IMG/VR virus record: IMGVR_UViG_3300044673_000097
Coordinates: 1 to 64,000 of that record
From: a virus
Reading direction: 5' to 3' (one strand)
DNA length: 64,000 nt
Shown: positions 2,162 through 49,142 of the stretch, piece after piece
How the letters are laid out: each line of letters opens with the position of its first letter
Position numbering within the stretch: position 1 is the stretch's first letter
Notes under the pieces: generated by a model
What the model was told of the DNA's origin: nothing
What the model saw: the letters and a program-made list of their open reading frames with translations, nothing else
Databases searched by the model: none
Program-made: the position numbers and the translations under genes

Positions 2162-3286
2162 ATGCCGGTTCTACCTGACGGCGACGGCTTCAAGTCTCGC
2201 GTGGTCATGCCCGACGGATCGCGCCCGTGGGTCCACGTTGACGCGCGCACGCCAGAGGAAGCGACCGACATCTTCGACCGAATGCGCCAAGCCTCACAGG
2301 CACAGCGAGCAGCCACGAGGGTAAGGCGGCCATCCGCATCGATCACGGTTGAATCGTGGGTGCGCGATCGCTGGACACCATCCCGCCGAAGCCGCGGGCT
2401 CGTCAACGTCGACTGCGACCTTGGCCGGCTCGCGAAACACATATTCCCCGCCATCGGGCCGACGCCCATCACGCAGGTGTCAACCCCGCAGCTCGAGCGC
2501 GTCGTGGCCGAGCTCGACGACAAGGTGCGCGCCGGGACGCTCTCGTGGAAGTCGGCGACCTGCATATGGGGGCTCGTGACCAAGGCCTTCGACGATGCCG
2601 CACGAGCCAAGGACTCGACGCTGCGGGTGCGCCCGGACAACCCGGCGGCAGATGTGCGAGGGCCCGATCGCGGGGTCGCGCGCGGCAAGTCGATCCTGTA
2701 TCCGGACGAATGGCTCCAGGTGTGGAGATGCGAGGCGATCCCGATCCGGTGGCGACGAATGATCGCGGTCGCGATCTACACCGCCCTGCGCGTGTCGGAG
2801 CTGCGAGCGCTGCGATGGCCGGACGTGGACCTGCATCGCGGGCTGATCCACGTGCACGCGCAGCAACGACGGACAAGCGGGGACGCGCGACGACTCAAGT
2901 CCGGCGCCGTCGCGCACCATGTCGAGATCGAGCGGTCGCTGTTGCCCGTTCTCCGGCAGCTCCACAAGCAACGCGCCGACGACCGCGTGATCCCACTGCC
3001 ACCGCTGCATGCGCTATCGTCGCGCCTGCGCAAGTACCTATGGCTCGCCGGCGTGCGCCGGGAGGAACTCCACGTCCCCGCCAAAGACGCCGCTCGAAAG
3101 CCGTTCTCGTGGCACGATCTGCGGGGGACTGGCCTCACATGGTGGGCCGCACGCGGAGATCCGCCCGCGGCTCTGATGCAGCGCGCGGGGCACGTGGTCA
3201 TGAGCACGACGATGGGTTACGTGCAGCTCGCCGAGGCGGTGGGGCGTGGGATCAAGCGCCCGTTTCCTGCCCTGACCAAGCCCTGA
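2162..3286 (+). CDS. int: tyrosine site-specific recombinase (phage integrase)
   Basis: 374 aa. An N-terminal arm- and core-binding region (to about 165) precedes a catalytic domain with all expected residues: R210 (ALRVSELRALRW), K246, H318 and R321 (WHDLRGTG), H344 (RAGHV) and the nucleophile Y353 (MGYVQ). It would integrate and excise the phage at a host tRNA gene through a covalent 3'-phosphotyrosine intermediate. The ATG at 2162 has no strong ribosome binding site. The gene ends next to a tRNA-3'-end-like core flanked by CCTGACCA repeats, the standard int-attP layout. Confidence 0.95.
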   Translation: MPVLPDGDGFKSRVVMPDGSRPWVHVDARTPEEATDIFDRMRQASQAQRAATRVRRPSASITVESWVRDRWTPSRRSRGLVNVDCDLGRLAKHIFPAIGPTPITQVSTPQLERVVAELDDKVRAGTLSWKSATCIWGLVTKAFDDAARAKDSTLRVRPDNPAADVRGPDRGVARGKSILYPDEWLQVWRCEAIPIRWRRMIAVAIYTALRVSELRALRWPDVDLHRGLIHVHAQQRRTSGDARRLKSGAVAHHVEIERSLLPVLRQLHKQRADDRVIPLPPLHALSSRLRKYLWLAGVRREELHVPAKDAARKPFSWHDLRGTGLTWWAARGDPPAALMQRAGHVVMSTTMGYVQLAEAVGRGIKRPFPALTKP

Positions 3287-3405
3287 CCAGCCTGACCAGA
3301 ACATCGAAATCACCGAGACATTTTGCGTCCCCAACGAGATTTGAACTCGTTTCGATATCGCGGAATATGCCTGTTTTTTGGCTGCGTTTCGGTTTCTTGG
3401 TCAGG
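3271..3405. other. probable attP: tRNA-3'-end-like core with integrase arm-type repeats
   Basis: On the minus strand 3321-3351 reads as the 3' end of a tRNA gene: a perfect 5-bp T-stem (ACGAG/CTCGT) around loop TTCAAAT, then TGGGGAC as an acceptor 3' strand, but no encoded CCA. Outside this core the octamer CCTGACCA occurs at 3271, 3282 and 3291, and its inverse TGGTCAGG at 3398-3405. Direct repeats on one side and an inverted copy on the other match arm-type binding sites of lambda-like integrases. The int reading frame overlaps the left arm. Confidence 0.8.
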
Positions 3406-3449
3406 GATGGCGACCGATGGCGACGACGTGATAGCGTTGGGGCCATCCC

Positions 3450-3863
3450 ATGCCCTCCCTGATCACCCTCGACCACTACACGATCACGACAGGCCACCTG
3501 CGCGAGTCGCCGCGCGCCGAGGTGACGATCCCGCTCGACATGCTGGCCGACCAGCTCACCACGGGCGTGCACCCGATGCCGAACTTCGAAGGCTACTCGG
3601 TGCGCTCGACGGTCGCCGGAACCATGCTTGCCGCGACCGTGTTCTATGGCCCGGCGCCGCTTGTGACGGCTCTGTGCGTCGTCGACGCGGCGGGATTGGC
3701 CGAAGCCCTCAGGCTCACAGGCGCGAGGCCTCCGAGGCGACTGGAGGCCCCGGCGTGCCTGGTGACGGTGCACCCGACGATCATGGCGGCGCCCGACGCG
3801 CAGTCGTGGATCGGGGATTGGGAGCGTTGCCTTGCGTGGGCGTGGGTGGAGAAGATGGGCTAG
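3450..3863 (+). CDS. hypothetical protein
   Basis: 137 aa, first plus-strand gene right of attP. It reads as a soluble alpha/beta protein without motifs I recognise. The C-terminal stretch (SWIGDWERCLAWAWVEKMG) is tryptophan-rich. It is tail-to-tail with the GIY-YIG-like gene. The codon pattern matches the rest of the phage, which is the main support for it. Confidence 0.55.
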   Translation: MPSLITLDHYTITTGHLRESPRAEVTIPLDMLADQLTTGVHPMPNFEGYSVRSTVAGTMLAATVFYGPAPLVTALCVVDAAGLAEALRLTGARPPRRLEAPACLVTVHPTIMAAPDAQSWIGDWERCLAWAWVEKMG

Positions 3864-3878
3864 GCCGCCTGGTCATTC

Positions 3879-4331
3879 TCAGAAGTCGGCGATGGGCCGC
3901 AAGGGTAGCGGCAGCGGATTCGGGTCGGCGCGCATCATGTCGCGCCCACGGATCGAACTCATCCGCCGAAAGTGGAACTGCTCAGCCGCGCGCCCTTCCA
4001 GTACCCTACGGGCGCATGACGAAAGGTACTCCCAACTGTAGCGCCGAGGGTCCCCTTCCCTGCCATGCTTTGGGATTTCGAGCGACTCCAGAGCGCGCCC
4101 GAAAGTGATGAGTCGCTGCGACGGATAAAACCACTCCCGATCTATCCACAGGTAGCTGAACATCTCCTGGATCATCTCCTCTTGCCTCACGTGGACAACG
4201 CGAGGATCCACCCCCAGCACTTCCAGGTCTTCCCCGCGTTCGGCGCAGATCTGCTCAATCCTGCGCTCGACCACGGTGGAGAACCCAATCTTGACCATCC
4301 CGGTCATTGACGAGCGAATCACGTAGAGCAT
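3879..4331 (-). CDS. GIY-YIG-like (MUG113/T5orf172-type) protein
   Basis: 150 aa. It begins MLYVIRSSMTGMVKIGFST, the degenerate 'Y-V-I...G..KIG.S' core of the MUG113/T5orf172 branch of GIY-YIG nucleases, and continues with an arginine-rich helix and an E-x3-H/Q-like region near W62 (DREWFYPS). These proteins are common in phages and mobile DNA, either as homing-type nucleases or as domains of uncertain activity. The C-terminal third is unrelated and basic. Activity cannot be judged from sequence. Confidence 0.7.
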   Translation of the reverse strand: MLYVIRSSMTGMVKIGFSTVVERRIEQICAERGEDLEVLGVDPRVVHVRQEEMIQEMFSYLWIDREWFYPSQRLITFGRALESLEIPKHGREGDPRRYSWEYLSSCARRVLEGRAAEQFHFRRMSSIRGRDMMRADPNPLPLPLRPIADF

Positions 4332-4349
4332 GTCGCCTCGTGCGCCGAA

Positions 4350-4374
4350 GCCCCGCCTTGTTTCAGAGCGGGGC
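4350..4374 (-). terminator. weak hairpin terminator candidate
   Basis: A perfect 7-bp stem (GCCCCGC/GCGGGGC) with an 11-nt loop lies just downstream of the minus-strand gene ending at 4392. No clear U-tract follows, so termination is uncertain. Confidence 0.4.
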
Positions 4375-4391
4375 CGGTCGGCTTGTCGTGC

Positions 4392-4844
4392 TCAGTCGCA
4401 CCACTCGCAGTTGCGCTTCCAAGCCGCGTCGGCGTCGAAGTCCCAGTTGCGCCAGTTGAACTCATGCAGCTCGAGACGATGCACCCGGCCGCCGTGGTCT
4501 TCGACGATGGTCACGGTCTTCGCGGTGATGCTCGTGATCGTGCCCATGTAGGTCATGTTGTAGCCACCGTAAGACGCCGTGTCGCCGAGGATGAAGGTGC
4601 GCGAGTAAGTAACGGGCCCGCCGACGCGATTGCCGTAGACGCCGTGCAGCGTGATCGACTTGCCGGGAACGATCGTCGCGTGCTGCCCGACGGCGGCATC
4701 GCGCTCGATGATCCGCCCGAAGCGCTTGTAAGGCTTCGCGGGGATGTCGCGGATCTCGATGATCTTGGCAGCGCGCGGGGCGGCGGGCATCGAAACGCCG
4801 TTGTCGTTCGCGGTGTCGGTGGTGGTGGTGTCGATGAGCATCAT
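4392..4844 (-). CDS. hypothetical protein divergent from the regulatory promoter
   Basis: 150 aa from a double-ATG start at 4844, preceded by AAGGTG at good spacing. The N-terminal 25 residues are Thr-rich and probably unstructured. The remainder looks like a small beta-barrel domain (SITLHGVYGN, GTITSITAKTVTIVEDHGGR) of the kind that measures or binds basic ligands. It is transcribed away from the operator and promoter at 4864-4904. No HTH is seen, so it is not an obvious repressor. Confidence 0.65.
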   Translation of the reverse strand: MMLIDTTTTDTANDNGVSMPAAPRAAKIIEIRDIPAKPYKRFGRIIERDAAVGQHATIVPGKSITLHGVYGNRVGGPVTYSRTFILGDTASYGGYNMTYMGTITSITAKTVTIVEDHGGRVHRLELHEFNWRNWDFDADAAWKRNCEWCD

Positions 4845-4863
4845 GACCGAATCACCTTGCAGA

Positions 4864-4887
4864 GAACGTGCCACGCTTGACATGTTC
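4864..4887. promoter_or_regulatory. operator copy A (24-bp imperfect palindrome)
   Basis: Arms GAACGTGCCA and TGACATGTTC with a 4-bp centre (CGCT). The right arm covers the -35 box of the rightward promoter, so a bound dimer would block it. Three further copies with the same 10-4-10 geometry lie within 550 bp. Confidence 0.7.
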
Positions 4888-4904
4888 CGTGGCGCATCTA
4901 TTAT
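4877..4904 (+). promoter_or_regulatory. near-consensus sigma70 promoter, rightward
   Basis: TTGACA at 4877-4882 and TATTAT at 4899-4904 with a 16-bp spacer. It points to the Fis-type HTH gene at 4946, giving a leader of about 35 nt with an AAAGGTG ribosome binding site at 4933. The overlap with operator A suggests repression. Confidence 0.7.
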
Positions 4905-4945
4905 GGCAGGAAGCTCCCGGCACGGGACGCGCAAAGGTGCCAGAC

Positions 4946-5185
4946 ATGCCCGCTCCAAAGTCCCCATTGGGCAGCGCCATTCGCGCGTGCCTCGAATCGA
5001 AAGACCATGTTTTTCGCGCGGTTGCGATCGAGCGAATCCGCAGCTCCCTTCGTCATCATGGGGGCAACCGGAAGGCCGTGGCCGAAGAGCTCGGGGTCGG
5101 ACTTCGCACTCTTCTGCGACTGCTTCACGATGAATCCGTGAGGAAGGAACTGGGCCTTCCACCCCCGAGGCCGGGGAGGGCATGA
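4946..5185 (+). CDS. Fis-type helix-turn-helix protein
   Basis: 79 aa from the ATG at 4946 (AAAGGTG six bases upstream). The region HHGGNRKAVAEELGVGLRTL (about 40-60) is a classic Fis/NtrC C-terminal HTH: 'G-N-x-x-x-A-A-x-x-L-G-V-x-x-R-T-L'. As a stand-alone protein without an AAA+ domain it could bind DNA as a dimer. It follows a promoter overlapped by operator A and is followed by operators B-D, so it is the best candidate in the window for a regulator acting at these sites, though sequence does not show which protein binds them. Confidence 0.75.
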   Translation: MPAPKSPLGSAIRACLESKDHVFRAVAIERIRSSLRHHGGNRKAVAEELGVGLRTLLRLLHDESVRKELGLPPPRPGRA

Positions 5186-5213
5186 TCCAAATGTCATGGG
5201 TGGACCACTGCTC

Positions 5214-5237
5214 GCAAGTGCCACGCGTGGCACGTGT
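5214..5237. promoter_or_regulatory. operator copy B
   Basis: Arms GCAAGTGCCA and TGGCACGTGT around CGCG. The inner 16 bp (GTGCCACGCGTGGCAC) are perfectly palindromic, the best copy of the set. Confidence 0.7.
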
Positions 5238-5334
5238 TTTTCGACGAAGCGAGCCAGTGTTCCGGCGTTCTTGGCTGTTCAGTATGACACCGGGCGCTTG
5301 CAGAATCTCCGAGGAAACTGCGGGTCGGCCTGTT

Positions 5335-5358
5335 CAGCGTGTCACGCCTGTCATGCCA
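5335..5358. promoter_or_regulatory. operator copy C
   Basis: Arms CAGCGTGTCA and TGTCATGCCA around CGCC, same 10-4-10 geometry as copies A, B and D, more diverged. Confidence 0.6.
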
Positions 5359-5403
5359 CGGCGGGTTCACGATGGGTGGCTCAACGGGTTTATGCGGGTT
5401 TGC

Positions 5404-5427
5404 GAACGTGTCACCCGTGGCACGTTG
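5404..5427. promoter_or_regulatory. operator copy D
   Basis: Arms GAACGTGTCA and TGGCACGTTG around CCCG. It ends 18 bp before the ATG of the 65-aa gene at 5446, so binding would affect its transcription or early elongation. A weak promoter (TTCACG, 17 bp, TTTATG at 5389) lies just upstream. Confidence 0.65.
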
Positions 5428-5445
5428 CCTGCATCATCGGCTGGC

Positions 5446-5643
5446 ATGAACACGACGACGACCAACACCGCGACCGACCTCGTGACCTTCTTCGCCTCCA
5501 AGATCGCCCAGTGCGAAAGCATCATGGACGACCACCGCGCCGCCGGAGAGCTTGGCAAGATGCTCGAGGCGTCCGGGGAACTGGACTACTACCAGCGCCG
5601 CATGAACGAGGCGCTTGCCGCCACGGTGGCGCTCGCCGCCTGA
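5446..5643 (+). CDS. small hypothetical protein under operator control
   Basis: 65 aa. After a Thr/Asn-rich start it is predicted to be two helices (LVTFFASKIAQCESIMDD and ELDYYQRRMNEALAATVALA), acidic overall. The ATG lies just after operator D, which argues that this is an operator-controlled gene. Function unknown; small early phage regulators or inhibitors look like this. The ribosome binding site is weak. Confidence 0.55.
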   Translation: MNTTTTNTATDLVTFFASKIAQCESIMDDHRAAGELGKMLEASGELDYYQRRMNEALAATVALAA

Positions 5644-5713
5644 CCCCACCCCAACCAGCTCCGGCCCGGTAGCCCTCGCGGTTCCGGGCCTGAAGGCGTA
5701 GGAGGAACCCAAC

Positions 5714-6115
5714 ATGACGACCCAGAACCCGACCGACACCGAGATCGCCACGTATCAGGACCGTCTCGCCCGCGAGGGCGACCATGCCGGGGTGGAGCTG
5801 TGCGAGATCGCGCTCCAGTGCGGCGAGCACACCACCGCGTCGGCTCTCGACGCATCCCGCGCCCGTGACCGGCTCTGGCAGATGATGCAGGATGATGCCG
5901 AGCCCTCGCAGCCTCACGACGCCTCGACGATTTGGGTCACGTGCTTCGGAAACGACACGGTCGAGGAAGTGTTGCGGGAAGCCAAGCGCCAGAGCGTGAC
6001 GCCGCAGGACTACGCGCGGGACGCCGTCCGCCAAGCCGTCGAGCAGGGCGCCGACCTCGGCGGCATCGACGCGTACAAGTCGCTTTGCAAGTCGCTCGGG
6101 ATCGATTGCTGCTGA
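5714..6115 (+). CDS. hypothetical early protein
   Basis: 133 aa from the ATG at 5714 with a strong GGAGG at 5701-5705. It is acidic and mostly helical, with a central short beta segment (STIWVTCFGNDTVEEVL). It ends with a CC pair and is directly followed by a rho-independent terminator, so it is probably the last gene of the operator-controlled transcript. No family recognised. Confidence 0.65.
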   Translation: MTTQNPTDTEIATYQDRLAREGDHAGVELCEIALQCGEHTTASALDASRARDRLWQMMQDDAEPSQPHDASTIWVTCFGNDTVEEVLREAKRQSVTPQDYARDAVRQAVEQGADLGGIDAYKSLCKSLGIDCC

Positions 6116-6128
6116 CCCTCACCCTCTC

Positions 6129-6168
6129 AGCCCCGCCCGAACCCAGGTAACGCTGGGGCGGGCTTTTT
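6129..6168 (+). terminator. rho-independent terminator
   Basis: GC-rich stem (AGCCCCGCCC with GGGGCGGGCT, one bulged base), 16-nt loop and a run of five T at 6164-6168, placed 14 bp after the stop of the gene at 5714. Confidence 0.85.
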
Positions 6169-6328
6169 GGGCAGATGCAGCGTTCCGCGGTTGCGACAAT
6201 CTACAGCGGTACCGGTCGCCGGGGAATCGTGGCGGTAGGGATGGCCCCCGAAGGCAGGCCGTACCGAGGCCGGGGAATCGGGCCTGCTCTCGGGGCTGTG
6301 AAAGGCAACGGGGGCGCCAGAGGGAATC

Positions 6329-6580
6329 ATGAGCGACCCAATCACCGCCGCGTCGTTGCTCGCACGAGCCCGCTACGTCGTCACGTCGATGACGCTCGAA
6401 GCGTACGCCGAGACGCTGCCCTTCGACACCGTCGCCCGCGTGAGGTTCGACGGATGGCAGGTCACCGAGGTGCGCCGGTACGCCGACTCGACGCAGGCCT
6501 GGCGCGACAAGCGCGAGGGGGAAAGCGTCGTGCATCGACGGCGCCCGTGGAAGGGCGTGCAATTCGAGGCTACCCCATGA
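6329..6580 (+). CDS. small hypothetical protein
   Basis: 83 aa starting after GAGGG. N-terminal helical, C-terminal half beta-rich and basic (ending RRRPWKGVQFEATP). Its stop overlaps the start of the DUF4942 gene (ATGA), which suggests a functional pair. Not recognised. Confidence 0.6.
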   Translation: MSDPITAASLLARARYVVTSMTLEAYAETLPFDTVARVRFDGWQVTEVRRYADSTQAWRDKREGESVVHRRRPWKGVQFEATP

Positions 6581-7362
6581 CCGACACCACCCTCGCCCGT
6601 CGCAGCACCGTCCGAGAACTCGTCGCCGCGTTCCAGGTTGCAGAACAGACCGTGCGGCGCTGCTTTTCGCAACTGGCCGAAGCAGAGCGAGAGGTCAACC
6701 TCGCGTTCACTGCGTCGAACAGGAGCGAGATCAGCATCGACGCGAACGAGCACTGGGGCAGCCGGTGGGACGACGCCGACGCGACCATCGAGAAGATGCA
6801 GCGTCAGGCGTGGCGCGTGATCGTCGATCGGCTCGAGCTGCGGCGGGCGATGTCGATTGCGCGCTACGACGAGCTGGTGCGCACGCTCGACCACGAGAAG
6901 CTCCCACCCATCACCGAGGAGAACGTGAGCGCGTTCGTCGACAGGTTCGCCCAAGACTTGCCCGCCATGATCAGCGAGGCCGTGCGCGAGGTCTTCGAAT
7001 GGCTTCGACCTCGCAACAGCAAGCTCAAGACCAACAGCGAATACGAGGTCCCGGCGAAGGTCATCTTGCCGAGCATGGTCGAGATGACGTTCGGCCGCTG
7101 GCACGTCAACCACTACCGGCAGCAGAACCTCGTCGCGCTCGAAAACGTCTTCAATTCGTTGGCGGGCAATGGGCAAGTGGCGAAGGCGTACCAGTCGCAG
7201 CTCCAGACCGCGATCGAGGCGTCGAGCGGTGAGGGGGAGACGGAGCTGTTTCGCTTCAAGGCATGCGCGAACCGCAACCTCCACCTGTGGTTCAAGCGCG
7301 GCGACCTGCTCGCGCGATTCAACCGGATCGCGGGCGGGAAGCGATTGCGACCGGCGGCGTAG
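6577..7362 (+). CDS. DUF4942 domain protein
   Basis: 261 aa from the ATG at 6577, overlapping the preceding stop. It matches the stand-alone DUF4942 type: an N-terminal helical section (RRSTVRELVAAFQVAEQTVRR), a central 'W-x-x-I-x-x-R-L-E-L-R-x-x-M-S' helix, and a C-terminal beta part ending in 'F-K-x-x-x-N-x-N-L-H-L-x-F' (FKACANRNLHLWFKRGDLL). In other phages and plasmids this domain is often fused or adjacent to DNA methyltransferases. No methyltransferase is seen here. Biochemical role unknown. Confidence 0.8.
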   Translation: MTDTTLARRSTVRELVAAFQVAEQTVRRCFSQLAEAEREVNLAFTASNRSEISIDANEHWGSRWDDADATIEKMQRQAWRVIVDRLELRRAMSIARYDELVRTLDHEKLPPITEENVSAFVDRFAQDLPAMISEAVREVFEWLRPRNSKLKTNSEYEVPAKVILPSMVEMTFGRWHVNHYRQQNLVALENVFNSLAGNGQVAKAYQSQLQTAIEASSGEGETELFRFKACANRNLHLWFKRGDLLARFNRIAGGKRLRPAA

Positions 7363-7414
7363 GCGTCAACCGTCGCGTTGACATCCTGCGTTCGGCGTCA
7401 ACAGAGGAGACACC

Positions 7415-7714
7415 ATGAGCAGGCTGGACAAGAACGTGCATCTGTCCGAATACCGCACATGCGACGAATGCGGCGGCGGAGATCGGGCCACCGTCTGCTT
7501 CTACGCGTGGTACGAGTCTGGCAGTTACAACTGCTCGACCACGCACAACGTCTGCGCCGAGTGCTTGCGGAAGGCGCTGGCCATCATCGAGACCGCCGAG
7601 AAGCGGCAAGTGCAACTGACCACGGATGCGGCCGGAATCCCGCTATGTGGCCGAGCCACAGACGGCGGCACCGCGTGTCGAAGGCCCGAGGGCCATGGCG
7701 GCAGGTGCTGGTAG
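7415..7714 (+). CDS. cysteine-rich zinc-binding small protein
   Basis: 99 aa preceded by AGAGGAGA. It has CDECGG near the N-terminus, a CAECL pair near residue 50, and a C-terminal 'CGRATDGGTACRRPEGHGG' block that resembles a short CxxxxxxxxxxC...H motif, about eight Cys/His in all. Last plus-strand gene before convergent transcription from the endolysin side. Function unknown. Confidence 0.65.
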   Translation: MSRLDKNVHLSEYRTCDECGGGDRATVCFYAWYESGSYNCSTTHNVCAECLRKALAIIETAEKRQVQLTTDAAGIPLCGRATDGGTACRRPEGHGGRCW

Positions 7715-7744
7715 TGCCATGGGGCCTCGCACAAAACGCCGAAA

Positions 7745-7773
7745 GCCCGACCCCCGCGAGGGAGCCGGGCCTT
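7745..7773. terminator. bidirectional terminator between convergent operons
   Basis: Inverted repeat GCCCG/CGGGC closing a GC-rich loop with a second CCC..GGG pairing, flanked by AAA on one side and TTT on the other. It lies between the plus-strand gene ending at 7714 and the minus-strand endolysin ending at 7795. Confidence 0.6.
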
Positions 7774-7794
7774 TGCACACTAAACCCAGCCGCT

Positions 7795-8355
7795 TTATCG
7801 AGCATCCGATGGGTTTATCGACGCCTCGATATTCGGCGTCATCGCCTCCACCACCATGCCGAGCAGCGCGTCCCATGGGAAGCTAGAGCCGGGGTCGACG
7901 TGGTTCGTACCGCCGAGCGTGCGGGTGATGTCCCAATGCCCCACGACGCCGCCCACGCCTGCCCGTATCGCGTCGAGCGTGGGGCGGACGGGCGCGACGT
8001 TGTGCCGCGCGCACAGACCCGCGACGAGGCCAGCGGCGAGCCGTAGCATCGCCTGCGCGTCGGGCGTCGCCCATTGCTCGGGCGTCATGGCGGCGCGGCC
8101 GGCGAGCTCGATGCCGATTGATTCCCCGTTGGCCTTCCCGCCCACGTGCCACGCGACGTTGTGATCCTCGACGCATTGGACGACATCGACGGGATCGATG
8201 CAGTAGTGAGCCGACACGGGACGCGAGAAGAACCCCCGCGCAACGGCTCGAGCCATGCCCCGCGCGAGCGGAACCTCGGCGGTATGGATGACGACGAATC
8301 GGATCGGCCGGGGGCCAGCGTGGGGAGAAAAGTGGGGCGAGGCAATCCAGATCAT
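7795..8355 (-). CDS. N-acetylmuramoyl-L-alanine amidase (endolysin)
   Basis: 186 aa, Amidase_2/PGRP fold covering almost the whole protein. Zinc ligands fit H24 (VVIHTAE), H140 (VGHWDITR) and D154 (NHVDPG), with the SAHYCIDPVD and HNVAWHVGG blocks typical of the family. It cuts the amide bond between muramic acid and the stem peptide at lysis. No signal peptide or binding domain, so it needs a holin for release. The ATG overlaps the previous stop; GGAGG lies upstream. Confidence 0.92.
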   Translation of the reverse strand: MIWIASPHFSPHAGPRPIRFVVIHTAEVPLARGMARAVARGFFSRPVSAHYCIDPVDVVQCVEDHNVAWHVGGKANGESIGIELAGRAAMTPEQWATPDAQAMLRLAAGLVAGLCARHNVAPVRPTLDAIRAGVGGVVGHWDITRTLGGTNHVDPGSSFPWDALLGMVVEAMTPNIEASINPSDAR

Positions 8356-42091: not shown

Positions 42092-43147
42092 TCACTGGTA
42101 CGCGGCGGTGTAGAGGTAGCCAGTCGCGGCGGCCACGACCTTGACATCCTCGTTGTACACGACGGCAACGCGCTCGCCGCCGTCCTGCCCGCGGCCCGAC
42201 TCGATCCAGCTCCGGAGGCGGAAGCCCGCGCCCGTGCTGGCCTTGCGCCAACGGAAGGTGCGCGCCGTGGGCACGTTCTCGCCGTTGGTCGTGGCGCCCG
42301 CGGGGACGTGGAGCAGCGTCACCGCATTGCCCCACAGGTACCCGTAGCTGCCGTCGGTCGTGCTCTTGCCCTTCATCCGCCCGATGACGAACGGAGGCAG
42401 GCCGAGCAGGCGGGCAATCGCCTGCGGATCGCTACCGAGCGACTGCGCGCCCGAGTAGCTGAAGTGCTTCGTCACGTTCGGGTTCTGGATGAACGCGAAG
42501 TACGTGCGCTCGCTCATCGCCACGTGGGTGATGGGCAGAAGGGCATTCTCGATGCCCGTCATGATGTCCTTGATCGGGTCGGAGCTGGCGCCGCCGTTCC
42601 ACTTGCTTCCCGCGGCGATCGCAGCGGTGAAGCCCGAGAACGCCGAGGCGCTCTGCAGGGCAGCGACCACGCGCTTTTCGTGGTGGAGCGTCACCACGTT
42701 CATGCACCGCTCGACGGCGGCCAGGCGGGGATTGACGCCCGCGTCGGCATTCGCCACGGCGCCCTGCGACACGAACGAGCTGATCCCGTACGGCTTGCAG
42801 GAGTAGTTGTCGGTCGACTTCTGCGGCGAGATCTCACTGAGCGCGGCATCCTCGCCGGCCATCTCGTCGGTGACCTCCTGGAACTTGTTGTCCTTGCTCC
42901 AGGTGTGGAAGGAATCGGAGGCCTTGTCCACCGGCAGCGGGGGCGCAACGATGTCCGCGATCGCCTCGCTCATGTTCGAGCCGTAGCCCGTCACGAAGCC
43001 TTCGAGCGCGCCGTTGATGTGCACGTCGCTGACGCTCAGCTCGCGCATCTCGAACGGCTTGCCGTCCACGTGCACGATCATGTTGTCTTCGTCGATCAGC
43101 CGAACACGGCCGTCGTCGGAGCGCAGCTTGATGAGATTGCCACTCAT
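42092..43147 (-). CDS. major capsid protein
   Basis: 351 aa. Called from its position after the protease/scaffold and cement genes, its size, and an HK97-like composition: an N-terminal arm, a long helix region (AAVERCMNVVTLHHEKRVVAAL, the spine helix), a P-domain sheet (GNAVTLLHVPAG) and a C-terminal strand YNEDVKVVAAATGYLYTAAYQ. Forms the icosahedral shell. Confidence 0.78.
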   Translation of the reverse strand: MSGNLIKLRSDDGRVRLIDEDNMIVHVDGKPFEMRELSVSDVHINGALEGFVTGYGSNMSEAIADIVAPPLPVDKASDSFHTWSKDNKFQEVTDEMAGEDAALSEISPQKSTDNYSCKPYGISSFVSQGAVANADAGVNPRLAAVERCMNVVTLHHEKRVVAALQSASAFSGFTAAIAAGSKWNGGASSDPIKDIMTGIENALLPITHVAMSERTYFAFIQNPNVTKHFSYSGAQSLGSDPQAIARLLGLPPFVIGRMKGKSTTDGSYGYLWGNAVTLLHVPAGATTNGENVPTARTFRWRKASTGAGFRLRSWIESGRGQDGGERVAVVYNEDVKVVAAATGYLYTAAYQ

Positions 43148-45648: not shown

Positions 45649-46305
45649 TCAGGCCAGCGGCTTGCGCTTGTAGACGAGCTGCACGCGGCTCACGATCACG
45701 TCGTCGGTGCCGAGCGTGCCGTCCTTCGGCTTGATGCTCATGGTGACGTTGGACCCGGTCGCAGCGAGGTTCGCGAGCGCGAGGGTCAGCGAGACTTCCT
45801 GAAGCGTCTTGGCTGCAGCGTCGCCCGTCATCGCCGAGGTATCGCCACCGAAGTCGGCATCGGCGTCATGCAGCGCGCCGACGACGTTGTTGTAGCAAGC
45901 GATGGTGAACTTGGTCGCGTCGCCGACGGTGTTTCCGGTCTTGGACGCCTCGACCTTGAGGTAGGCATTCGCCGTGATGTCCATGTCCGCGGGCATCGTG
46001 AAGCGCGTGAAAACCGCGGTCTGCCCCGCCTGATTGTTCCAGCGAATCCCCATGCACTTCGAATCAGCGAGCGTCACGCCGGGAGCCGACGCGCCCGCAT
46101 TGTCCGCGAACGCAGCCATGGGCGTTCCCGCGGCGAGGATGGCGCCGGTCAGGTCGATGTCGAGCGTCGCGTTCGAGCTCGTCGCGCTCGTCTTGACGTA
46201 CGTCGCAACGGCCTCGAGCTCGCGGGCCATGCGCTCGACCTTGAGCGCGTTGTCTTCGATCTGCCCGAACGAGGGGACCGTAGTCGGGAATCCAGCAGTG
46301 CTCAT
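45649..46305 (-). CDS. uncharacterised beta-rich head-region protein
   Basis: 218 aa. N-terminal helix (GQIEDNALKVERMARELEAVA), then a beta-sandwich (DMDITANAYLKVEASKTG, FTIACYNNVVGAL) ending in VIVSRVQLVYKRKPLA, like carbohydrate-binding or capsid-decoration modules. It sits between the portal and the gpF-type gene, where Mu has none. Likely an accessory virion protein. Confidence 0.55.
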   Translation of the reverse strand: MSTAGFPTTVPSFGQIEDNALKVERMARELEAVATYVKTSATSSNATLDIDLTGAILAAGTPMAAFADNAGASAPGVTLADSKCMGIRWNNQAGQTAVFTRFTMPADMDITANAYLKVEASKTGNTVGDATKFTIACYNNVVGALHDADADFGGDTSAMTGDAAAKTLQEVSLTLALANLAATGSNVTMSIKPKDGTLGTDDVIVSRVQLVYKRKPLA

Positions 46306-47759
46306 TCGTCTTCTCCATCGCCCTCGTCGGGCTGGGTTGAATCGTCCTTCGCGTCGGTGGAGTCGCCCTCCATGTCGGGCATCACCGGCGGGGTATCGCT
46401 CGCAGGCTCATCCGGTTCGACAGGCTCGGGCTCGTCGTCCTCCGGGTCCTTCTCGACGGGCGCCACATAGGCCACGGCCGTGCCGTCCTTGCTCATCACC
46501 ACGTCGCCGGGGACAGCGTGCGGGATTCCGAATCGCTCGGACGCCCACACCGTCGGGACCGGCACGCCCTTGTCGACGAGCCCCGTCACCGTCTCCATCG
46601 CCAGCTTGTCGTCTTCCGCCGGCTCCACCTTCGTGTGGTAGGTCGGCAGGTACTTGTCAGCCGCAGCTCGACCGAAGTTCAGAATCACGAGCGGTCGCAC
46701 AACGAACTGCTGAACAGCCTCGTCCCACGCGCGCCCATCGACGCAGATGATCTCGTCCTGATCCTTGCTCTGCGTCTCGGCCTGCGCACCCTCGCCGCGC
46801 TTGCTCGTGCCCGTGGTCAAGTGACCGCCGAGCACGGCCTCGGATTCCTGCGCGTCGCACAGGTCAATCAGGCCCGTGTGCGGCGTGTTCGATCCAGCCG
46901 TCCCGGATTGCGAGCCCTGCCCTTTGAAGGACAGCGAGAATGCGTCCGAATGGGCGACGGCGCCGAGGCCCGATGCGACCTTCTGCGCCACGCCATGCGC
47001 GTCTTCGATGTCCTGCGCTGAGGCAGTCGTGGAGTTGCCGCTCTTCCACTCGACATCGACGAGCGACTTGCCGCGCGACTCGACGAACACCATCATGTCG
47101 CGCCACGCGAACCTCTTGAACCCCATCGGGTAGGCGATGATTCGCCCGAGGCCTTCGCGCGTCGGGTATTCGTCCGCGAGCTTCGGCTCGAAGATGAAGA
47201 ACTTCCCCTCCCACTGCGGGTCGCCGGGGAAGACGCCCGTCGAATTGCCGTAGCCGTCGCCCACGTACAGGCGGAACTGCTCGTCGTAGTCCAGCCGACG
47301 GTTGTGGATGAACTCGAGTCGGTCGATCAGCCAATCGCCATTGGTGCGCCGCCAGATGAGTTCCCGCGCGGAGACGCCGTAGAAGGTGCCCCACAGGAGC
47401 CCGCGGCAATGCGTCTGCCAATTCGGGATCTGCGCGATGGCCTCCCGTACGAACTGCGCGACCAGCTCTGCGCCTGCGCGGTCAGCCTCGTTGTCCTCCC
47501 CGAACTTCGCCGGCAGAATATCGAAAGGCTTGTTCGCGACAGACGAGAAGCGCTTGGACAGCACCGAGAACGCGTGCGGGTCGCCTTCGAGAAGCTCCCG
47601 CAATACGTCGACGTACGTCTGCCGATCGCCCTGCTCGGCGTACCGCATGGCCGAACCGATTGCGGCCACCGTCGCCCTCGCGCCGTAGTGCACAGGGAAC
47701 CGATCGTTCGGGTCCGGGCGCACATATTGGCGCTCGAGCTGTGCGAGGCGGATGGGCAT
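46302..47759 (-). CDS. portal protein, DUF935 (Mu gp29-like)
   Basis: 485 aa. It carries the DUF935 core: 'D-P-H-A-F-S-V-L-S-K-R' early, then ELIWRRTNGDWLIDRLEFIHNRR, 'Y-P-x-G-F-K-R-F-A-W-R-D-M-M-V-F-V-E-S-R-G' and LGGHLTTGTSKRGEGAQAE. The C-terminal 60 residues are acidic and disordered. Forms the dodecameric DNA gate at the capsid vertex. ATGA-coupled to the gene downstream. Confidence 0.9.
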   Translation of the reverse strand: MPIRLAQLERQYVRPDPNDRFPVHYGARATVAAIGSAMRYAEQGDRQTYVDVLRELLEGDPHAFSVLSKRFSSVANKPFDILPAKFGEDNEADRAGAELVAQFVREAIAQIPNWQTHCRGLLWGTFYGVSARELIWRRTNGDWLIDRLEFIHNRRLDYDEQFRLYVGDGYGNSTGVFPGDPQWEGKFFIFEPKLADEYPTREGLGRIIAYPMGFKRFAWRDMMVFVESRGKSLVDVEWKSGNSTTASAQDIEDAHGVAQKVASGLGAVAHSDAFSLSFKGQGSQSGTAGSNTPHTGLIDLCDAQESEAVLGGHLTTGTSKRGEGAQAETQSKDQDEIICVDGRAWDEAVQQFVVRPLVILNFGRAAADKYLPTYHTKVEPAEDDKLAMETVTGLVDKGVPVPTVWASERFGIPHAVPGDVVMSKDGTAVAYVAPVEKDPEDDEPEPVEPDEPASDTPPVMPDMEGDSTDAKDDSTQPDEGDGEDE

Positions 47760-47768
47760 GGTGTTCGG

Positions 47769-49142
47769 CTATTCGTCGTCAAAGCAGCTTGTGCGAGCGA
47801 AGGTTGAGGCGCGGGATTGGGGCGCCTGCTGAGGGCCGATCATCAGGAACGTCAGCCCCCACACGAGCGCGTCGACGCGGTCTGGTGAGCCGTCATCGTT
47901 GACGGGGTCCCATGCGCACATCTGGTCTTCGAGCTTGGCGAGCACTCCGACGTGGTGCACCCTGCCTTGCTCGTAGAGCGCCGAGATGGGCTCGGCTCGC
48001 GTCATCTTCCCGCGACTCGCGTGCACGCCCTCATACGGGATCGTGTTGCGCGCCGTCCGCACGTTGGACTCGACGAGGTCGCCGCCGTTGTTCGTCTCGC
48101 CGATGACCTTGTCGGCCCTGTGCGAATCGAATGCGGCAACGGCTCGAGCGGCCCATTGCGCCGGGGGAAAGATTCCGGACTTGTCGTCGAGCACGTAGGC
48201 GTGGCCGTCGATGCCGAGGCCCACAACCACGATGCCCGTTTCGTTGCTCTTCGGGTTCGCCGTGACCGCCGGGTCGATCGCTACGACCACCCTGCGCAGC
48301 TCTGGCGCCGTCGCAACCCTGAGCGCGTCAATCCGTGGCCGTTGCCACAGCGCGCCGGGATTGTCTTCGAGCACCTCGGCCTGAAGCTCCTGCCTGCCGA
48401 GTCGCGTCCCCTCGTACTGCCGGATGATGGCATCGAAGAACGCGGGCGCCAGGTTCGATCGATTCTCGTAGGTCGTGCCGCGCGTCACCGCAACGTCATT
48501 GCCGTTGCGAGCGAGCAGCGCCTTGACCAACGGAATCGGCCGGGGGGTCGTCGTGACGATTCCCTGCGGCGTGGCCCCCAATCGGAAGCCGAGTTGCAAT
48601 TGCGTCCACGCGTCGGGATAGCGCCATGACGCCAACTCTTCGGCCCAGAACGCGTCGCACTGCTTGCCGCGGAATCGGTCTGGCTTCTCGGCACTGATGC
48701 ACAATGCCTTCGCGCCGTTCGGCCATTCGACGCGGCCACGATTCGCCACGTACGTCGGCTTGCACCATGGCGAGGCAGTCGCGAGAATCCCCGACTCGCC
48801 TTCGATCATGATGTCGCGCAGGTCGTCCGCAGTCGGCGCGGCGAGAATGATTCTCTTCGCCTTGCCCGTCTCGACCTTCTCGCGAATCCACTCAGCACCG
48901 CACCGGGTCTTGCCGAATCCTCGACCTGCGAGAATCAGCCAGATGACCCACTGCCAATCCGGCGCAATCTGCTTGGGTCGGGCAATCAGCCCGCGCCAAT
49001 CGTACAGGAGCGAACGCGCGACAGCTTCAGGCAGGCTCGCCAGAATCTCCGCCCGCTGGTTCGCCGTCAGGCTTTCCAGCAAGCGCCGCAATTCGCTCGG
49101 CGAGCATGCTTCGGGCATCTTCGATGGGGATGGCGCCACCAT
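47769..49142 (-). CDS. terL: large terminase subunit (Terminase_6)
   Basis: 457 aa. ATPase: Walker A LAGRGFGKT (71-79), Walker B region CDAFWAEEL (D163, E168-E169) and coupling motif TTTPRP. Nuclease: D289 in VVAIDPAV, with conserved ETNNGG and YEGVHASRGKM segments. Powers DNA packaging and cuts concatemers. The N-terminus overlaps the small-terminase gene by about 90-116 bp depending on the start (ATG 49142 or 49118). Confidence 0.93.
   Translation of the reverse strand: MVAPSPSKMPEACSPSELRRLLESLTANQRAEILASLPEAVARSLLYDWRGLIARPKQIAPDWQWVIWLILAGRGFGKTRCGAEWIREKVETGKAKRIILAAPTADDLRDIMIEGESGILATASPWCKPTYVANRGRVEWPNGAKALCISAEKPDRFRGKQCDAFWAEELASWRYPDAWTQLQLGFRLGATPQGIVTTTPRPIPLVKALLARNGNDVAVTRGTTYENRSNLAPAFFDAIIRQYEGTRLGRQELQAEVLEDNPGALWQRPRIDALRVATAPELRRVVVAIDPAVTANPKSNETGIVVVGLGIDGHAYVLDDKSGIFPPAQWAARAVAAFDSHRADKVIGETNNGGDLVESNVRTARNTIPYEGVHASRGKMTRAEPISALYEQGRVHHVGVLAKLEDQMCAWDPVNDDGSPDRVDALVWGLTFLMIGPQQAPQSRASTFARTSCFDDE

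Follow-up and report, generated by a model that had tools for sequence, protein, structure and literature searches.

The window analyzed here is a 64,000-nt stretch of a virus record of 85,379 bp, which extends past it. A tyrosine integrase is encoded at 2162..3286 (plus strand), and a probable attP core resembling a tRNA 3'-end (ACGAGTTCAAATCTCGTTGGGGACGCA, 3324..3350, minus strand) was located by eye beside the integrase; ARAGORN finds no whole tRNA there. A simple codon-based gene call, from which our gene map derives, places accessory genes at 3450–7714, between the attP core and the lysis and structural genes on the minus strand, which include those for an endolysin (7795–8355), the major head protein (42092–43147), the portal (46302–47759) and the terminase (47769–49142). 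The array of palindromes described below is some 1.5 kb in from one predicted end of the prophage and is followed by the lysis genes; this attP/lysis end is the usual place for accessory ("moron") genes. Since the putative target genes of the array have no assigned function, we call them accessory on account of their position.

Several other features of the record were seen in passing. At 496–1494, beside the excisionase-like and integrase genes, a DUF5131 protein matches the candidate defence models PDC-M41B/M30B (3e-34 and 8e-32). By eye, an ORF resembling a cytosine DNA methyltransferase (78713–81007) has an apparent intein right after its ENVEEF motif (CFPGDTTVLTKRG...). Both ends of the record (85332–85379 and 1–100) carry GGGTAGGGG, and a lipoprotein-like frame seems, again by eye, to span the joined ends, so that a circular or terminally redundant record is possible.

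At the locus itself, a stand-alone HTH protein of the Fis/NtrC type (79 aa), our candidate regulator, is encoded at 4946..5185 (plus strand), preceded by the ribosome site AAAGGTG at 4933–4939. Divergent to it is the gene for a 150-aa protein (4392..4844, minus strand; ribosome site AAGGTGA), while on its other side a 260-bp gap leads to a 65-aa ORF (5446..5643, plus strand) and then to a 133-aa ORF (5714..6115, plus strand), likely the second gene of the same unit. A hairpin with TTTTT resembling a Rho-independent terminator (6135..6168, plus strand; −26 kcal/mol, z −2.9) closes this 5446–6115 unit.

Around the HTH gene are four copies of a 24-bp palindrome, at exactly the positions given in an earlier sequence-only reading (4864, 5214, 5335, and 5404). 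Copy A (4864..4887; GAACGTGCCA-CGCT-TGACATGTTC) is strong and sits between the two divergent genes, just upstream of 4392–4844, whose start is 19 bp away. It covers the −35 box of a promoter, as had been noted: the sequence TTGACA-16-TATTAT (4877..4904, plus strand) agrees with the sigma-70 consensus at 11 of 12 bases, is the sole sigma-70-like match in 4.7 kb (3200–7900) and reads into the HTH gene. Copy B (5214..5237; GCAAGTGCCA-CGCG-TGGCACGTGT), 28 bp after the HTH gene, is good and has a perfect 16-bp core palindrome, whereas copy C (5335..5358; CAGCGTGTCA-CGCC-TGTCATGCCA) is degenerate and marginal. Copy D (5404..5427; GAACGTGTCA-CCCG-TGGCACGTTG) is strong and stands directly upstream of the 65-aa ORF, 18 bp separating its end from the ATG at 5446, which bears out the earlier remark that it lies just before an ORF. 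The copies are confined to about 560 bp, in two non-coding stretches that flank the HTH gene, with B, C, and D all in the 260-bp gap. Copy A read on the minus strand and copy D read on the plus strand share 20 of 24 bases, stand at matching distances before two gene starts and are both followed by CTGCA.

Copies A and D each have one mismatch to the 24-mer GAACGTGYCA-N4-TGRCACGTTC, for which the chance expectation in the window is 0.01. When the record was scanned with a position weight matrix (PWM) based on a half-site model, the array copies were the top four (29.9, 29.6, 23.2, and 19.5, with the next hit at 10.7), although this ranking is not independent, as the model was derived from the same four copies. 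Leave-one-out scoring, a fairer test, puts A and D far ahead in first place; B also comes first, but narrowly and with a score that a random genome can attain, and C ranks 8th and may be a chance occurrence. Copy B gains support of its own from its core (GTGCCACGCGTGGCAC), which fits GTGYCAN4TGRCAC without a mismatch; in the whole record this is true of B and D only, while three sites including A have one mismatch and nine sites including C have two. Based on the leave-one-out ranks and the core matches, therefore, we accept A, B, and D and regard C as doubtful, so that the four-copy array of the sequence-only reading is real but its third copy is marginal. The genome-wide motif scan which that reading had proposed finds no comparable copy elsewhere in the 85,379-bp record, and the scattering through coding regions which it had set against its own claim is not seen, all four copies being in non-coding DNA. 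Palindromes of 10-4-10 shape with up to 3 mismatches number 490 in the record, and the shape alone is ordinary in this GC-rich DNA; what is unusual about the array is the common sequence of its copies, their clustering and their non-coding position, not their palindromy.

Other explanations for the repeats were considered and set aside. A location within coding DNA is ruled out by the codon-based scores of the upstream extensions of 5446 and 4844, both of which are non-coding. Copy B, after which GTGTTTTT comes, could double as a weak terminator hairpin, but it is not a terminator only, since the hairpin is no better than those of shuffled sequences and the core sequence is common to A and D. 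A known RNA element is ruled out by the absence of an Rfam match, and integrase arm sites were rejected by inference, the distance of 1.5 kb from attP being too great.

The 79-aa protein belongs to the HTH_8 (Fis) family, PF02954, with 30.7 bits against a curated cut-off of 22 (29.6 bits in a second search; E-value 2.5e-7). Its ORF has atypical codon usage, with poor codon scores for this phage. A single-sequence structure model has a mean pLDDT of 78, and the nearest solved structures are Fis and the DNA-binding domains of NtrC-type activators (NtrC1, 4l5e; NtrC4, 4fth), all with E-values >0.5; sequence searches point to the C-terminal ends of NtrC-type and PrpR-type proteins at low significance, and identity to Fis is weak (26% at best among the Fis rows of the structure search). 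Fis and the NtrC-type domains are the nearest neighbors by both sequence and model. The protein consists of the HTH only and is not itself an NtrC-type activator, as it lacks the AAA+ sigma-54 interaction domain of these, and the site in the array is unlike that of Fis, which is degenerate and A/T-centered. Contrary to the sequence-only reading, it is not the only DNA-binding candidate, for the phage also encodes an XRE repressor, an excisionase-like HTH_17 protein (1838–2113) and a second HTH_8 protein. This last, also small and stand-alone (77 aa; 67384–67617, minus strand), lies directly upstream of a gene whose product has a weak HTH_31 match.

Taken together, we hypothesize, with confidence a little above even, that the array supplies the operators of a small self-contained regulatory module at the accessory ("moron") end of a temperate phage, with the 79-aa HTH protein as its binder. 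The protein would be made from the promoter whose −35 box lies in copy A and would most likely bind each palindrome in dimeric form, the half-sites being one turn of the helix apart. Through A it would shut off its own promoter and the divergent gene 4392–4844, and through D the two-gene unit 5446–6115, while B and C would act as auxiliary sites. The layout is that of an autoregulated repressor–operator module, with copies over the regulator's promoter and at the starts of the target genes, and the earlier pairing of the array with the Fis-type protein beside it is supported. Binding as a dimer is established for DNA-binding domains of the Fis and NtrC type, and the centre-to-centre half-site spacing of 10 bp fits a dimer of this kind; against this reading, the site is 24 bp long, which is more than is typical of NtrC-type sites. 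We infer the binding, the repression and the autoregulation alike, the sign of control being read from the position of copy A only.

Relatives were sought for the protein and for the sites. No related viral contigs were found for the HTH, 150-aa, integrase, DUF4942, and 133-aa proteins, and neither the HTH protein nor the 150-aa protein, for which the predicted structure model is too poor for use, has a match in the annotated phages or plasmids searched. Against 297 genomes of one phylum, which may not be that of the host, the HTH protein gave three matches only, all in open frames of about 450–530 aa resembling the ends of activator proteins. Terminase relatives are widespread and include six viral contigs, short fragments in which no HTH match was found. 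A search of viral contigs for the palindrome returned 15 single matches, which we take to be roughly at chance level, and none of the six contigs checked has an array with a relative of the HTH protein; the extended pattern common to A (minus strand) and D (plus strand) had no match in the site searches. In one viral contig (L012, 5574–5613), two copies of a very similar palindrome overlap (CATCGTGTCAGTTTTGACACGTGTCAAAATTGACACGTTC). No HTH homolog with similar sites was found that would link protein to site by comparison, which keeps our confidence in the module near even.

Alternatively, the copies might be bound by a host transcription factor, for example one that is TetR- or CRP-like, which would couple the accessory genes to the physiology of the host. 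Arms of 10 bp in a 24-bp palindrome are suitable for larger dimeric regulators as well. However, the HTH gene flanked by the sites is the phage's own and its promoter carries one of them, as is usual for autoregulation, and the spacing of the core differs by 2 bp from that of a CRP-type site. We consider a host factor unlikely, although it is the best of the alternatives.

Less probable still is binding by the phage's own CI/XRE-like repressor, with the copies as dispersed operators like those of P1 C1, so that the accessory genes would be silent in the lysogen along with the early genes. The repressor gene (70738–71289; phrog_4, E 1e-10; HTH_3, 4e-7) and that of a BRO-N antirepressor (69607–70350; phrog_130, E 2e-42) both lie at 69.6–71.3 kb, outside the window, together with a small divergent ORF that has no family match and may be Cro-like. 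The sequence-only reading had found no CI-like repressor, which is correct beside the array but not for the record; the gene lies beyond the window's edge and was for that reason missed. Two copies of the half-site GCTGTCA (70648 and 70664) cover or adjoin a leftward TTGACA in this part of the record, and two more are found at 73121 and 73142, the latter covering a rightward TTGACA; 70560–73200 looks like a CI-type immunity region with two operators flanking the repressor unit. In favor of the CI repressor as binder, one of the better non-array PWM hits, at 70652 (containing GTTACAGCGCTGTCAC), falls in the intergenic DNA ahead of the repressor gene and shares the 6-4-6 shape. However, the half-site repeated over both early promoters is GCTGTCA, and neither exact GCTGTCA nor ACAGCGCTGT was found in the array; the overlap is partly due to the TTGACA −35 box common to both.

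A further possibility is that the strong copies belong to sigma-54-type promoters (TGGCACG-N4-CTGCA) before 4844 (minus strand) and 5446 (plus strand). The two sequences concerned, TGGCACGTTCTCTGCA (4858..4873, minus strand), which overlaps copy A, and TGGCACGTTGCCTGCA (5418..5433, plus strand), which overlaps copy D, both have GG-N10-GC spacing, 11 of 12 consensus bases and a near-equal distance to the ATG, and nothing else in the 85 kb matches as well. However, chance would yield 0.45 such sites in a genome of this size, against the two observed with no more than one mismatch, and this number is not significant; the two are not independent either, since the −24 element is also a palindrome arm. 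Further, the predicted starts would give leaders of 2–3 nt, excluding the ribosome site AAGGTGA of 4392–4844, and no AAA+ activator was seen among the phage genes examined. We therefore regard such promoters as quite improbable. A marginally more remote idea combines them with the HTH protein: the phage would have made a stand-alone repressor, with operators over sigma-54-type promoters, out of the DNA-binding domain of an NtrC-type activator, so that the accessory genes would answer to host sigma-54 and be held off by a "headless" activator.

Least probable of all is the proposal of the sequence-only reading that the array is the phage's immunity or lysis–lysogeny switch. An HTH gene set among divergent units and palindromic operators, as if autoregulated, would suit it, but the CI-type region with antirepressor is at 69.6–71.3 kb and has a repeated site of its own, no CI-like gene stands beside the operators as in a CI/Cro-type switch, and the array lies beside integrase/attP and the lysis end with no replication or early genes under it.

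The array is thus most likely a local self-controlled switch for accessory genes rather than the main decision switch. A comparable layout is the immunity I region of P22, an "ant moron" with mnt, arc, and ant that forms a second regulatory region in a variable accessory stretch (PMC2629481). What the two have in common is a position apart from the main immunity region, in variable accessory DNA, and a small stand-alone DNA-binding protein that controls its neighbors or, here, would do so; the comparison is one of layout and not a claim of sequence kinship. The array is no member of the P22 kind, since repressor family and target differ. In P22 the target is an antirepressor; in the present phage the antirepressor gene is a neighbor of the CI-like repressor gene, and in place of Mnt or Arc homologs controlling an antirepressor the region has an HTH_8 protein. 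Mnt and Arc are ribbon-helix-helix proteins, not HTH_8 proteins. Dispersed operator systems, such as P1 C1 and the stoperators of cluster A mycobacteriophages, likewise have several copies of one operator in non-coding DNA, but here all copies fall within 560 bp of DNA surrounding a single regulator gene, and their sequence is not that of the half-site recurring in this phage's CI region.

If the module reading is right, an uncultured temperate phage with no close relative in the collections searched has a secondary self-controlled module, and a Fis/NtrC-type HTH protein is suggested as a local phage repressor. The effect would be modest, since this kind of circuit is already known from P22-like phages; it would mean that the accessory genes of a prophage can carry their own switch.
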